A DNA stretch of 64,000 nucleotides from Oscillospiraceae bacterium. Its GTDB lineage: Bacteria; Bacillota; Clostridia; Oscillospirales; Acutalibacteraceae. The position numbers were made by a program, and so were the translations under genes. Location: assembly GCA_015066525.1 (NCBI GenBank), contig SVOG01000042.1:1-64000 (forward strand), in the 5' to 3' direction. Below, piece after piece: positions 18,050 to 60,999 of this stretch. Positions within the stretch are counted from its first letter, which is position 1. Every line of letters begins with the position of its first letter. The notes below the pieces were generated by a model. The model searched no databases. It worked only from the letters and a program-made list of their open reading frames with translations, and had not been told where the DNA came from.

Positions 18050-18370
18050 ATAAAAGCCCCCACACTTGCGTATAGGGGCGTAATAACACGCGGTACCACC
18101 CTACTTCGGCAGAAGGTAAACTGCCCTTTAGCGTCAAACAACGCCTTAACCGATAACGAGGTTAAAGGTAAACTGCCCTTTAGCGTCAAACAACGCCTTA
18201 ACCGATAACGAGGTTAACCGTCTGCTCCTATTGATTTCTATTCAGAGCAGCGACTCCGCAGAGAGCTATACACTCAACACTTTGTATCGGCTCACACCAA
18301 CCGCCGACTCGCTGAAACGAAAATGAAGAATCTTTTTCTGCATCACAGTCTTTTGTAGGTACTGTTAAAT
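18050..18370 (-). promoter_or_regulatory. T-box leader riboswitch upstream of leuA
   Basis: Minus-strand AGGGTGGTACCGCG T-box (18090-18104) followed by GCCCC...GGGGC hairpin with TTTT (18051-18079) ahead of leuA; ~320-nt leader. Confidence 0.93.
18113..18216. repeat. Exact 52-bp tandem duplication within the T-box leader
   Basis: aaggtaaactgccctttagcgtcaaacaacgccttaaccgataacgaggtta at 18113-18164 and again at 18165-18216. Confidence 0.97.
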
Positions 18371-43647: not shown

Positions 43648-43769
43648 TTCTGCTTCCTCCTTGATTTTGTAAAATTAAATTGTGTACAATTCATTTCGTT
43701 ATCATTATAACAATATCATTTCCATTTGTCAAGCATTTTTTCAAAATAATTGATTTGCACAAATACGCA

Positions 43770-43801: not shown

Positions 43802-45370
43802 TCATTTTACTTTGATTGTAACAGTCACGGTCTTTGTAGCTGGTTTGTAGTTTGCGTTACCTGCCGCTGTAACCTTAACTTTTACTTTGTAAGCGCCTTT
43901 TTTCAGACCCTTTTTAACGGTAATCTTGCCGTTTTTAGCAACCGTGATTTTCTTGTTGCCGCTTGCTTTTTTGTAAGTAACCGCGCCCTGCGCCTTGCTG
44001 ATAGCAAACGCCTTTTTTGCGGTAACGGTCTGGTTTTTCTTTTTAAGACTTGCAAACTTAACGGTTGCGGTCTTGCCCTTTGCAACAAGTGTATTCGCCG
44101 CTTTCGTTATTCTGAAATTCAAGTTTAAACTGCCGAAATATAATCCGCTGAAAGTAACAGTTGCTGTCGCCGTGCCGACTTTAATATTATTTGTATACTT
44201 AACAGTATAATACTTGCTGTTAACAACGTTGCCCTCAACATCCTTGACTGTAACGGCAGGAGTTTTTGCGCTGCCACTGTATGTGTACGACGTTGCTGAA
44301 AGTGTAACGCTTTTGAGTGCAGGAATGTACTCAGCAGAAATATTGCCGCAGATTGGGCATTTGCTCAGATACACGCCGTTGTGGTTAAAGCCTGCGGCTT
44401 TTGTAACCTGCCAAATATCAGTTGTAACGTGTACTTTGCCGACAATACGCTTGAACTGGATGAGTGAAAGCAAAGCGTCCTTTGTGGCATAAGTATCGTC
44501 TTTACCGTTTACGGTGAACGCACCTGTTTCAGAATTATAGAAATTGTCAATCAGCTTTTGATAGTACCAATAAGCGCTATTTGCGTCAAGCGCCGAGGAG
44601 AAGCCAAGCATTGCAAGCGCAGTTGAGTCTGCGTTTACTGTTGTAACGTAATTATTGTCGGCATACGCGCCGTCCTCTTTTGTATATGATTTAAGAACAC
44701 CGCAAGCGTCGTCAATATACTCGTTATAAAGACCTGAAATCGCTGTCGGATACAGCGCAGCAAGGAAGTGTCCAGTGTTGTCGCACGAATAGCCGTAGTA
44801 GTTCATGCCGCTGCCTTTGGTGTAAAAACGGGCAATCAAATCGTCTGCGAGCGTTTTTGCAAATTCATCCTGAACTGCTGCCCAGATTGCGAGCCTGTAA
44901 GAATATGGGTTTGAAATTGTAGTAAGGTCAAAACTCTCAAATGCCGCAGTGATGTCAAAGCCTTCAAAATCTGCGGGGTCAAGTTTCATACTGCGAAGGG
45001 TGAGGATAACAGCGCCGTAAACGCCGATATCTTCATAACTGTAGGAATATGACTTCCAGTCGCCGTTTTCGTCCTGATACCATTCTGTGCCTTCGATAAT
45101 AATTTTACCATCGTTTTTGGTAAGATTTGCCTTCAGGTTTTCAAGATAATTCGCCTTGTAAGCGCTCATATCGTAACCTGCGTCAGTCAAAAGCCAGTAG
45201 TCGCCGTAACTGAGCGAACTCATATCGCTGTTGTTTGCAATATAATTTGCCGCATTTGAAATCTGGTTGCTTAACTGACTTACTCCGCTTGTTTCTGCCT
45301 GTGCGGTAAAAGTGCCGAAGCAGGAAAGCAGCATTACAAGCGCCAGTGTGAGTGATAATACTTTTTTCAT
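43802..45370 (-). CDS. Secreted protein with prenyltransferase/terpenoid-cyclase-like toroid region and C-terminal Ig-like repeats
   Basis: Signal peptide MKKVLSLTLALVMLLSCFGTFTAQA; repeat-like helical motifs (NADSTALAMLGFSSALD..., TYATKDALLSLIQFKRI); CPICG knuckle; Lys-rich beta repeats; start 45370 behind GGGAGG RBS. Confidence 0.75.
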   Translation of the reverse strand: MKKVLSLTLALVMLLSCFGTFTAQAETSGVSQLSNQISNAANYIANNSDMSSLSYGDYWLLTDAGYDMSAYKANYLENLKANLTKNDGKIIIEGTEWYQDENGDWKSYSYSYEDIGVYGAVILTLRSMKLDPADFEGFDITAAFESFDLTTISNPYSYRLAIWAAVQDEFAKTLADDLIARFYTKGSGMNYYGYSCDNTGHFLAALYPTAISGLYNEYIDDACGVLKSYTKEDGAYADNNYVTTVNADSTALAMLGFSSALDANSAYWYYQKLIDNFYNSETGAFTVNGKDDTYATKDALLSLIQFKRIVGKVHVTTDIWQVTKAAGFNHNGVYLSKCPICGNISAEYIPALKSVTLSATSYTYSGSAKTPAVTVKDVEGNVVNSKYYTVKYTNNIKVGTATATVTFSGLYFGSLNLNFRITKAANTLVAKGKTATVKFASLKKKNQTVTAKKAFAISKAQGAVTYKKASGNKKITVAKNGKITVKKGLKKGAYKVKVKVTAAGNANYKPATKTVTVTIKVK

Positions 45371-45385
45371 CTTAATCCTCCCAAT

Positions 45386-45410
45386 AAAAAAGCTCTGCCT
45401 CGGGCAGAGC
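45386..45410 (-). terminator. Intrinsic terminator between cobalamin aptamer and ORF (expression platform)
   Basis: Minus strand GCTCTGCC-CGA-GGCAGAGC followed by TTTTTT just upstream of the RBS. Confidence 0.9.
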
Positions 45411-45480
45411 GAAAATGAGTACGACGAAAAAGCCGCAAACACCCATCCCTCTTCCGCTTGCCCAAGAGTATGAATTAACG

Positions 45481-45611
45481 CTGAAACTCGTCTCCCGACT
45501 TATGACAACACAAATCGCCTTCTCAGTTTCCCGATGGCTGATGATTTGCTCTCCCGTCAAATACGGTAATGGCGGTTGTGCAGGATTCGCACCTGCTTCC
45601 GTTAGTTTCAG
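45481..45611 (-). promoter_or_regulatory. Cobalamin riboswitch aptamer
   Basis: Minus strand GAAGCAGGTGCGAATCCTGCACAACCGCCATTACCGTA...AAGTCGGGAGACGAG, closed by P1-like CTGAAAC/GTTTCAG at 45605-45611 and 45481-45487. Confidence 0.9.
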
Positions 45612-45623
45612 ATTTGCAAAAAC

Positions 45624-45651
45624 ATTATAGCATATTCAGTAAAAAATACAA
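45624..45651 (-). promoter_or_regulatory. Promoter of the riboswitch transcript
   Basis: Minus strand TTGTAT (45646-45651) - 16 bp - TATAAT (45624-45629). Confidence 0.65.
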
Positions 45652-57104: not shown

Positions 57105-59414
57105 TCAGTCCCCGATAGCACTAAAATATTCCTGCGCGATGCGGACGCTCTCCATCGCGTCCTTCGCATAATAATCGGCGTCAATCATCCGCGCGTACTC
57201 CTTCGTCAGGACGGCGCCGCCGACAAACACCTTCGCATCCGTGTTTTCGTGAATTAAGTGAATCGTCTTTTCCATATTCGGCACCGTCGTCGTCATCAGC
57301 GCCGAAAGTCCCACGAATTTCGCGCCGTGCTCCACCGTCTTTTCGAGCACGGTTTCGCATTTGACATCCTTGCCGAGGTCGATGACGTCAAAACCGTAGT
57401 TTTGCAGCAGCACCTTGACGATATTCTTGCCGATATCGTGGATGTCGCCCTCGACCGTGGCGATGATAATCTTGTCGCCCTTTACCTGGGGCGTACCTTT
57501 TGAGGCAAGGCACGCCTTAATCTCATCAAATGCCGCCTTTGCCGCATCCGCAGCCATCAGCAGTTGGGGCAAAAACAGTTTATTTTTCTCAAATCCGTCT
57601 CCCACGATGTCGAGTGCAGGGATAATATGCGCATTGATAACCTCGAGCGGTGCGGTATCCTGCAACAGCACGCGTGCACAGGAGGCGCTCTCGTCCTTCA
57701 TACCCTTAATAATTGCGTCCTTGAGCGTCACATCGGCGCTCGCCGTTTGCGCGATTTCGACCGCGGTTGCCGAAGCAATGTACTCCGTACAGTTATCGTC
57801 AAGCCCCGCCAGCGCGTTAAACGAATAATAGGCGTTCATCATACTCTGTGACTTCGGATTGATGATACCGCCGCTGAGTCCTGCGCCGAGCGCCTGCGTG
57901 TAAAAGGCAGTATTAATCACTTCTCTATTCGGCAGACCGAAGCTGATATTCGACACGCCGAGTACGGTATTCACACCGAGGGTGTTCTTACAGTAGTCAA
58001 CGACCTTCAGCGTTTCGACCGCATTTTGCTGATTCGTGCTGATCGTCATCGTCAGCGCGTCGATAACAAGGTTTTTCTTGTCAATGCCGTACTCTTTGGC
58101 AGTCTCGATCATCTTCTCGGCAATCTTAATTCTGCTCTCGGCATCCTCGGGAATGCCGCTCTCATCGAGACAGAGACAGACGACCACGCCGCCGTATTTC
58201 TTCGCAAGCGGGAAAATCTCCGCCATGGACTTCGCCTTGCCGTTGACGGAGTTAATCATCGCCTTACCGTTATAGATACGCAGCGCCTTCTCGAGCGCGA
58301 GCGGGTCGGAGGAGTCGAGCTGCAAAGGCGTCGGCAGCACCGACTGGAGTTGATAAACTGCGTCGGTGAGCATCTGTACCTCATCAATCTCAGGCAGTCC
58401 TACGTTGACGTCGAGAATGTGGGCGCCGCAGTCACGCTGCGTAATGCCCTCCTTGAGAATATAATCCATATCGCCGTTTCTCAGCGCTTCCTTAAGCAAT
58501 TTCTTGCCCGTCGGGTTAATGCGCTCGCCGATAACGGCGCTCTTTTTTCCGAGTTCCACGCACTCGCTGTAACTCGACACGAGGGTGGTATGCTTAAAGG
58601 AGGGAGCGCAGTCGGGAATATCTTTTGTCGCGGCAATCAGCGCGCGGATATGGTCGGGATTCGTTCCGCAGCAACCGCCGAGATACGACACGCCGAGGGC
58701 GGCAATCTCCTTCATATATCCCGCAAACTCGTCGGGAGTTACGTTATAGACCGTCTCGCCGTTCACACTCTCGGGCAGTCCCGCGTTCGGGTTTACCATA
58801 ATCGGCGTGGATGAAACGCTGACGAGCTCCTCCACGAGCGGTATCATCTGTTTCGGACCGAGTCCGCAGTTAAAACCGATAACATCGACGCCGAGTCCCT
58901 CGCACATGGCGACCGCCGTTTTCACATCGGCGCCTGTAAGCAGTCTTCCCTTTTCGTCAAAAATCATCGAGACAAAGACGGGCAGGTCGCAGTTTTCCTT
59001 AGCCGCGAGCACAGCCGCCTTGATTTCATAGGTGTCTCCCATTGTTTCAATCAAAACGAAATCCGCGCCGTCGGCTCCCGCCTTGACCACCTCGGCATAA
59101 AGGGACACGCAATCCTCAAAATCGAGGTCACCCATCGGTTTCAGCAGTTTTCCCGTCGGTCCGAGGTCGAGCGCAACCTTTTTGCCTGCCTTCTTCGCGA
59201 GGGCAACGCCCGCGCGCACAATCTCGGCACAGTTTTCGTATTTCAGCGGATTCGCGCCGAAGGTGTTGGCGGTAATAATATCCGCGCCCGCCTCGGCGTA
59301 TGCCCGATGCACGCGCAGGACACGCTCGGGGTCGGTGATATTCAGTTGTTCGGGAAGCTCTCCCGCTGCCAGCTGCAACATCGTTCCCATTCCGCCGTCA
59401 AAATACTGTATCAT
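57105..59414 (-). CDS. metH: Cobalamin-dependent methionine synthase (Hcy-MT, pterin and B12 domains; no activation domain)
   Basis: DGGMGTMLQ, GGCCGTNPDHI, GERINPTGKKLLKEAL, B12-binding VEGDIHDIGKNIV. Confidence 0.94.
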   Translation of the reverse strand: MIQYFDGGMGTMLQLAAGELPEQLNITDPERVLRVHRAYAEAGADIITANTFGANPLKYENCAEIVRAGVALAKKAGKKVALDLGPTGKLLKPMGDLDFEDCVSLYAEVVKAGADGADFVLIETMGDTYEIKAAVLAAKENCDLPVFVSMIFDEKGRLLTGADVKTAVAMCEGLGVDVIGFNCGLGPKQMIPLVEELVSVSSTPIMVNPNAGLPESVNGETVYNVTPDEFAGYMKEIAALGVSYLGGCCGTNPDHIRALIAATKDIPDCAPSFKHTTLVSSYSECVELGKKSAVIGERINPTGKKLLKEALRNGDMDYILKEGITQRDCGAHILDVNVGLPEIDEVQMLTDAVYQLQSVLPTPLQLDSSDPLALEKALRIYNGKAMINSVNGKAKSMAEIFPLAKKYGGVVVCLCLDESGIPEDAESRIKIAEKMIETAKEYGIDKKNLVIDALTMTISTNQQNAVETLKVVDYCKNTLGVNTVLGVSNISFGLPNREVINTAFYTQALGAGLSGGIINPKSQSMMNAYYSFNALAGLDDNCTEYIASATAVEIAQTASADVTLKDAIIKGMKDESASCARVLLQDTAPLEVINAHIIPALDIVGDGFEKNKLFLPQLLMAADAAKAAFDEIKACLASKGTPQVKGDKIIIATVEGDIHDIGKNIVKVLLQNYGFDVIDLGKDVKCETVLEKTVEHGAKFVGLSALMTTTVPNMEKTIHLIHENTDAKVFVGGAVLTKEYARMIDADYYAKDAMESVRIAQEYFSAIGD

Positions 59415-59431: not shown

Positions 59432-59517
59432 CAGTTTTGAGTTGCTAAACATTAGTATCTTCTCGATGCCTTGCGCAGCTCAAAACTCAATGCTCAAAAC
59501 TTGTGAGCGCAGCGAAC
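59432..59517. repeat. Intergenic heptad/inverted-repeat element
   Basis: agttttgagttg ... cagctcaaaactcaatgctcaaaacttgtgagcgcagcg. Confidence 0.6.
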
Positions 59518-60080
59518 TACTCATCGGCAATGCCGATGATTGCCGTAACGCTTTTAGTCGGTATCATTTCAAAGGTATCGGTCAGGGTAACGCCGATACG
59601 CTTGGTTATCTCAATCAGGTCAAAAACCTGCTTCTGCGCTGAAATATCGAGGTCAAAATATCCCGGTGAGTACCGCTGACGCAGGGCGACGCCCTCCGTC
59701 TCTTTTATCTGCTCCTCGAGTGCGTCGCAGACTTCCTCAATCTTACACGCCGCAGCCGCCTGCAGTGCCATCGCGAGCGCCACATCGGTAGCGGACGCGC
59801 GCTGAATCAAGCGGTCGCACGCCGTGCCGAGCGTCGCGCCGAATACCACCGCGCGCTGACACCCTCTGAGATTGTCAGCGAGATGGCTGCTGCGAAATAC
59901 CGCGCCGCCGATGGTACAAACGTCGCCCTCCACCGTGCAGGCAAAAATGCGGCTGAGCGTTTTCGGCTGTGCCTCATTTTCAATCATCTGAGCCGCCTTG
60001 TCGGCGAGGGCAAGGATATGCGCGTCGGTCGTGTGACTGTTCGTGCGCATATAGCGCAAAATCTCCGCCCTATCCATCAA
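59517..60080 (-). CDS. Standalone methionine synthase activation-domain protein
   Basis: RQRYSPGYFDLDISAQKQVFDLIEITKRIGVTLTDTFEMIPTKSVTAIIGIADE. Confidence 0.88.
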   Translation of the reverse strand: MMDRAEILRYMRTNSHTTDAHILALADKAAQMIENEAQPKTLSRIFACTVEGDVCTIGGAVFRSSHLADNLRGCQRAVVFGATLGTACDRLIQRASATDVALAMALQAAAACKIEEVCDALEEQIKETEGVALRQRYSPGYFDLDISAQKQVFDLIEITKRIGVTLTDTFEMIPTKSVTAIIGIADE

Positions 60081-60936
60081 TGATATCCGACAACCCGTTC
60101 ATAATCGCCGCGGCGACATCGGGCTTGTTCATCGTATAAATATGGATATTATTGACACCGTTTGCCATCAGGTCGATAATCTGCTCGGTTGCATAGATGA
60201 TGCCCGCCTGCTTCATTGACTTCGGGTCGTCGCCGAAGCGCTCCATAATGCGATAAAACTTCTTCGGCACGGAGCAGTTGGACAGTTCGATGCTGCGCAT
60301 AATCTGCTTCGCATTCGTAATCGGCATAATGCCCGCGATAATCGGCACATTGATACCCTTAATGCGGCACATCTCATAGAAATTCAGAAATTTGTCGTTA
60401 TCAAAAAACATCTGCGAGGTCAGAAACTGCGCGCCGCAGTCGACTTTATATTTCAGATAACCGATATCCTCCACGCGGTCGCGGCTCTCGGGATGAATCT
60501 CGGGATAGCATGCGCCGCCGATACAGAAATCGCCCATTTCCTTAATCTCGTTAATCAGTTGATAGGCATGCTCGAAATACTGCTTGTCGGGAAAAACAAA
60601 GCCCTCGGGAATATCGCCGCGCAGCGCAAGGATATTCTCAATTCCGTTTTCCTGGAGTTCATTCACCACATGATGAATCTTGTCGCGGGTGGAGGTAAGG
60701 CAGGTGAGATGCGATAGGGGTGCCACGCCGCTATTCTTAATCTCGTTGGCAATCTCGGTCGTAAATCCCGACTGCGTGCCCGCTGCACCGTAGGTCACGC
60801 TCATAAAAGACGGCTTTGCGTCGCACATCTCGCGCACAACCGTCTTCGTGCTCTCGATCTTGTCCCACTGCTTGGGAGGGAACACCTCGAAGGAAACCGT
60901 CACTCTGCTTTTTTGAAGAATCTCGCTGATTTTCAT
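60070..60936 (-). CDS. metF: Methylenetetrahydrofolate reductase
   Basis: VSFEVFPPKQWDKIEST; MSVTYGAAGTQSGFT; LTCLTSTRDKIHHVVNELQENGIENILALRGDIP. Confidence 0.95.
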   Translation of the reverse strand: MKISEILQKSRVTVSFEVFPPKQWDKIESTKTVVREMCDAKPSFMSVTYGAAGTQSGFTTEIANEIKNSGVAPLSHLTCLTSTRDKIHHVVNELQENGIENILALRGDIPEGFVFPDKQYFEHAYQLINEIKEMGDFCIGGACYPEIHPESRDRVEDIGYLKYKVDCGAQFLTSQMFFDNDKFLNFYEMCRIKGINVPIIAGIMPITNAKQIMRSIELSNCSVPKKFYRIMERFGDDPKSMKQAGIIYATEQIIDLMANGVNNIHIYTMNKPDVAAAIMNGLSDIIDG

Positions 60937-60999
60937 ACAAATCACCCTAAATTGATATAAAATAAATTATAGCACGAATTCCTACTTTGTCAATATGAT

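Follow-up and report, generated by a model that had tools for sequence, protein, structure and literature searches.

The question raised by this locus is why a cobalamin riboswitch should stand in front of a gene for a secreted protein, P0001, that belongs to no recognised family. The locus lies in a window of 64,000 nucleotides (the whole stretch of DNA analysed) from a metagenome-assembled genome (MAG) of the Eubacterium coprostanoligenes group, to which the contig RUG741 is near-identical (97%). The original prediction was of a surface protein that captures B12, or of a partner of one. This is the best explanation, and a supported one: binding of B12 is presumed, and linkage across the genus argues for it much more strongly than the single locus. 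We consider it probable that the locus encodes one half, the toroid, of an intrinsic-factor-like pair of proteins that captures B12 (cobamide) at the cell surface, and that B12 represses it. Support comes from the riboswitch, a leader computed to be bistable, a predicted toroid fold, the genus-wide linkage, the DUF4430 gene and the B12 gene content.

The leader of the gene has the following features, in the order of transcription:

45624..45651, minus strand: promoter-like TTGTAT-N16-TATAAT, 5' of the riboswitch (direct reading)
45468..45644, minus strand: cobalamin riboswitch aptamer RF00174 (Rfam match)
45564..45578, minus strand: L5 region CAACCGCCATTACCG, candidate kissing partner (CCGC) of L13 (direct reading; pairing putative)
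45449..45468, minus strand: P13 hairpin CTCTT(GGGCAAGCGG)AAGAG, with L13 GCGG (conserved stem and direct reading)
45399..45466, minus strand: antiterminator, CTTGGGCA (45466-45459) with TGCCCGAG (45406-45399) (computed folding)
45386..45410, minus strand: intrinsic terminator GCTCTGCC-CGA-GGCAGAGC-TTTTTT (scan and direct reading)

An aptamer of about 131 nt had been predicted on the minus strand. The Rfam model RF00174 matches there (45644-45468) at full length (model positions 1-189) with 62.5 bits against a gathering cut-off of 31.5 (E 4.6e-13), which by score makes the aptamer a regular member of its family. Its P1 is an 8-bp helix, read directly, of CTGAAACT (45611-45604) with AGTTTCAG (45488-45481), and the stretch bounded by P1 measures about 131 nt, as predicted. 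A search of the genome finds one cobalamin riboswitch in the 1.64 Mb, 74%-complete MAG. The window also has a T-box leader (RF00230, 109.5 bits) at 18071-18355 on the minus strand. The two hexamers of the predicted promoter, with their N16 spacing, are seen by direct reading; they are absent from the list given by a consensus promoter scan. The terminator predicted between aptamer and ORF was recovered by the terminator scanner at 45410-45392 with its T-run, as one of two terminator-like sites where 0.5 are expected in shuffled sequences.

Between aptamer and terminator, P13 lies 3' of P1. Its stem forms in all 56 genus sequences that have the motif. Several of its pairs show compensatory changes (pair 6 is G-C in 24 and A-T in 23), and the mean stem of 6.09 pairs compares with at most 5.80 across 200 partner swaps. 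By its sequence, L13 can pair with L5. The 5' strand of P13, CTTGGGCA, can alternatively be taken up by TGCCCGAG, the first half of the terminator, and this antiterminator excludes both P13 and the terminator. The two folds are close in energy as computed with ViennaRNA: the antiterminator, at -32.0 kcal/mol, lies 1.8 kcal/mol below P13 with the terminator (-30.2), and the leader is therefore predicted to be bistable. Contact of L5 with L13, if stabilised by ligand, could switch it to the OFF state. In having P13 and a putative transcription-terminating expression platform the leader is like other RF00174 riboswitches; it differs in its target, which here is a surface toroid and neither B12 synthesis nor BtuFCD transport nor an isozyme.

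The gene behind the leader encodes P0001, with these features:

45377..45382, minus strand: ribosome-binding site GGGAGG (direct reading)
43802..45370, minus strand: ORF of P0001, toroid surface protein of 522 aa, stop codon included
45293..45370, minus strand: signal peptide MKKVLSLTLALVMLLSCFGTFTAQA|E, residues 1-26 (direct reading)
44441..45292, minus strand: alpha/alpha toroid domain, about residues 27-310 (fold prediction; riboswitch linkage)
44345..44359, minus strand: CPICG motif, residues 338-342, start of a generic surface module
43805..44314, minus strand: Ig-like, Lys-rich C-terminal repeats, residues 353-522 (module matches elsewhere in the genus)

The plan originally read for this gene, a GGGAGG ribosome-binding site followed by one ORF with a signal peptide, holds in each part: GGGAGG (45382-45377) precedes an ATG at 45370, the ORF ends at 43802, and its N-terminus reads MKKVLSLTLALVMLLSCFGTFTAQA|E. 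A signal-peptide-like start is found in all 59 complete homologues. Reading LLSC in the signal peptide as a lipobox was rejected, the cysteine not being conserved in relatives. The gene appears monocistronic because the next gene, for a glutathione peroxidase, has its own near-consensus promoter 5' of it (TTGACA...TATAAT, window 43704-43732, minus strand, direct reading). Past P0001, a run of genes from 43647 to 42005 encodes glutathione peroxidase, a thioredoxin-reductase-like protein and thioredoxin.

A CPICG knuckle and Ig-like repeats had also been predicted; they are present, and what changes is their meaning. Residues 320-522 have matches in numerous further secreted proteins across the genus, with several in each genome, and the CxxC and Ig-like module is not recognised by Pfam above cut-off. 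A Cadherin match within these repeats (E 0.0014) is below the Cadherin cut-off and was discarded. The C-terminus is exchanged among relatives: of the 59 complete homologues, 28 have a sortase-like tail at their end, a CxxC module is present in 21, and cell-wall-binding repeats in several. Judged by these sequences, the CPICG/Ig part is a generic surface module outside the B12 function. The toroid is the constant part of the homologues, with interchangeable anchoring, and the domain of residues ~27-310 is the conserved, B12-linked core of P0001.

What, then, is this core? The sequence of P0001 gives nothing over any cut-off in Pfam, NCBIfam or PDB. Its N-terminal half had been likened to prenyltransferase and terpenoid-cyclase toroids, and structure prediction confirms an alpha/alpha toroid: the AlphaFold2 model of residues 25-345 is a mostly helical toroid (pLDDT 90.9, pTM 0.88), and its Foldseek matches are alpha/alpha toroids, namely glucuronyl hydrolases, terpene cyclases, transcobalamin and intrinsic factor. 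Rat transcobalamin (8ixt) ranks 16th and intrinsic factor (3kq4) 31st, the latter at 17% identity, and TM-scores are modest (about 0.4-0.57) to any toroid match. The Pfam families of prenyltransferases and squalene-hopene cyclases (PF00432, PF13243, PF13249) do not match P0001, and a profile of the toroid against PDB gives no significant match to intrinsic factor and only a chance match to an antibody. The likeness to prenyltransferases and squalene-hopene cyclases is one of fold only, and fold alone does not prove P0001 a carrier. The best Foldseek matches, an unsaturated glucuronyl hydrolase and squalene-hopene/terpene cyclases, would also suit an enzyme with the alpha/alpha toroid superfold (for instance GH88/GH105/GH76-like or terpene-cyclase-like) that is under B12 control by coincidence. 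We consider such an enzyme improbable, however: searches of Pfam and NCBIfam give no enzyme family above its cut-off, it is hard to see what B12 control would serve, and in and outside the genus the toroid is almost constantly paired, by fusion or adjacency, with the B12-capping domain DUF4430.

Linkage of the riboswitch to the toroid can be followed through the genus. Cobalamin riboswitches are present in 73 of 80 genomes, nearly always in single copy, and 77 such loci were classified by the gene behind the riboswitch. The toroid family follows directly in 63, and a giant DUF4430 protein in seven. A further two loci are truncated and show the start of a member of this giant family, two have an aBig_2-domain surface protein behind the riboswitch, two are cut off by the end of the contig, and one has only a divergent DUF4430 gene. 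Among the downstream genes inspected at these 77 loci there is no known gene of B12 synthesis or transport. Neighbours past the toroid vary (DeoR/PfkB/PTS, HD/PrmA, glycyl-tRNA synthetase, glutathione peroxidase). A homologue of P0001 is also present in cultured Eubacterium coprostanoligenes ATCC 51222 (locus L224). The giant DUF4430 surface proteins behind riboswitches (L070, L104, L121, L127, L129, L131 and L132) are of 1225-2561 aa, and that of L070 has a prenyltransferase-like toroid as well. At L062 (1935-4178, genome G103) and L067 (genome G027) a second cobalamin riboswitch precedes a surface protein of 750-800 aa with aBig_2 and CarboxypepD_reg-like domains, without DUF4430 or toroid.

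In intrinsic factor and transcobalamin, DUF4430 is the B12-capping domain. No DUF4430-like segment had been apparent in the ORF, and Pfam likewise finds no match to PF14478 in P0001. The domain is missing there because it has a gene of its own, which in relatives is either in the operon of the toroid or divergent from it and which here is unlinked. DUF4430 is found in 75 of the 80 genomes, usually once, at about 60 bits against a cut-off of 23.8. Its gene, for a lipoprotein, sits operonically between riboswitch and toroid in 22 loci, is the divergent neighbour of the toroid locus in 15, and lies elsewhere in the remainder. The source genome has one such lipoprotein (contig C20, 224 aa, 57 bits against 23.8). 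Its gene is unlinked to the toroid and no riboswitch was detected before it, so the pairing of these two proteins is argued from the analogy of its relatives. A profile of the genus DUF4430 against PDB gives only seven matches, which include transcobalamin-2 and intrinsic factor; each of these two is weak (E 0.27-0.32) and aligns in the B12-capping domain.

The association extends beyond the genus. As an independent test, the toroid profile was searched in 396 genomes of the same order, and relatives, most of them distant, were found in 92. A DUF4430 domain fused to the toroid, or encoded next to it, is seen at 26 of the 27 best distant loci. Three of the 27 are preceded by their own cobalamin riboswitch, scoring up to 136.6 bits; L257 and L250 have riboswitch, toroid and DUF4430 in that order. 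Comparison of the N-terminal domain of the fused relatives with DUF4430 (hhalign) gives a short match (26 columns, probability 82.7), suggestive of a DUF4430-like domain. Foldseek of a fused relative returns mostly multi-domain matches to complement and macroglobulin.

These loci also bear on whether the toroid, acting alone, might be a B12-regulated adhesin or structural surface protein whose linkage to DUF4430 is one of co-regulation only. The generic surface modules of P0001 would fit such a role, as would L062 and L067, where a DUF4430-less aBig_2 surface protein is under the second cobalamin riboswitch. We regard it as very improbable, however, since fusion or adjacency of toroid and DUF4430 recurs across the order, and animal carriers sandwich B12 with the same two folds (PMC1796856).

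The window also carries metH, whose product is the likely consumer of captured B12, with a gene for a MetH-activation protein and metF:

57105..59414, minus strand: MetH, B12-dependent methionine synthase, 769 aa (S-methyl_trans, Pterin_bind, B12-binding_2, B12-binding)
59517..60080, minus strand: small MetH activation-domain protein (PF02965, E 2.1e-8)
60070..60945, minus strand: MetF, methylenetetrahydrofolate reductase (PF02219, E 2.4e-82)

A MetH-type B12-binding domain exceeds its cut-off in 79 of the 80 genus genomes, a MetE-like gene is found in two, and CobS in none. To judge from this gene content, the genus needs B12 yet cannot make it, and the host is best explained as a B12-dependent, B12-non-synthesising gut or rumen Clostridium. 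Only one genome, G108 (contigs C2 and C3), has no MetH-type match over cut-off; it has a MetE-like gene, three FecCD matches and no detected riboswitch, and retains the toroid with a divergent DUF4430 gene. The absence of CobS bears too on the nature of the ligand, which is not deducible from sequence. Various corrinoids can act on cobalamin riboswitches (PMC9600662), and the protein might capture, in place of complete B12, other corrinoids or a precursor or remnant of a cobamide, cobinamide for example. This seems unlikely, since completing cobinamide requires CobS, which is absent from the 80 genomes and without which the usual route could not finish incomplete corrinoids.

As to import, the toroid locus has no linked gene for a B12 importer. 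FecCD/BtuC permeases occur in 10 of the 80 genomes, and several matches to ECF S-components are present, which make an ECF-type importer the likely next step after capture. One ECF S-component adjoins an FMN riboswitch (94.1 bits; L239, 2146-2340, minus strand, contig C7) and probably belongs to a riboflavin importer.

The favoured reading, a two-protein capture system repressed by B12, suggests the following course. When B12 is scarce, the leader would fold as the antiterminator and the toroid protein would be made and exported. Outside the cell it would cradle B12 and pair with the DUF4430 lipoprotein as its cap (in the source genome, that of contig C20). The ligand would then pass to an importer in the membrane, for which the ECF type is the likeliest, and so reach MetH. 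With B12 in plenty, P13 would be stabilised by the aptamer through the L5-L13 contact, the terminator would form, and synthesis would stop. Binding, pairing, hand-over to ECF and the direction of regulation are what we infer within this reading. More tentatively, and with somewhat less than even confidence, we suggest that the toroid cradle and the lipoprotein cap, separately made and anchored, close on B12 at the cell surface and open to the ECF importer, that the cobalamin-riboswitch regulon of the genus consists almost entirely of such capture, and that the ancestor of the animal carriers has in this system a living relative.

The idea of bacterial B12 scavengers built of a toroid and DUF4430/SLBB has already been published. 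Burroughs et al. (2007; PMC1796856) united the C-terminal domain of transcobalamin with bacterial SLBB proteins, described SLBB fusions to toroids, linkage to CbiO/CbiQ transporters and paired SLBB proteins, and proposed B12 scavenging for secreted or anchored proteins of Gram-positives without B12 synthesis; their text makes no mention of riboswitches. At the level of genus and order, the present proteins resemble that group in having a secreted toroid linked to an SLBB protein of the transcobalamin clade and no B12 synthesis. They differ in riboswitch control, in chains that are often separate, in a toroid invisible to Pfam and in the lack of a linked transporter; in the source genome, moreover, the toroid and SLBB genes are unlinked. 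With intrinsic factor, transcobalamin and haptocorrin they share an alpha/alpha toroid and a DUF4430-type beta domain, both secreted, whereas here these are two chains, attached to the cell surface and riboswitch-controlled, without significant sequence similarity in the toroid. Neither the same-chain nor the sequence-homology test places P0001 in the intrinsic factor family; the analogy supports the view that it would work like intrinsic factor split in two, with B12 binding presumed. BtuG of Bacteroides is likewise a surface protein that captures B12 for import, as is proposed here, but is unrelated, being a surface-exposed lipoprotein that works with BtuB in Gram-negatives (PMC6143338). A riboswitch-controlled split form was not found in the open-access literature, subscription papers being mostly outside the scope of that search. 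New in the present system are its control by a riboswitch, its split architecture and its toroid family, which is unrecognised by Pfam.

The riboswitch before the toroid provides direct regulatory evidence for a prediction of B12 scavengers made in 2007 from domains, and that prediction is now testable in cultured E. coprostanoligenes ATCC 51222. Competition for B12 among Gram-positive gut bacteria is poorly known compared with that of Bacteroides, where BtuG and BtuB serve. The finding also bears on the origin of the animal B12 carriers, which it would inform because Burroughs et al. proposed that these carriers were transferred from low-GC Gram-positives (PMC1796856).
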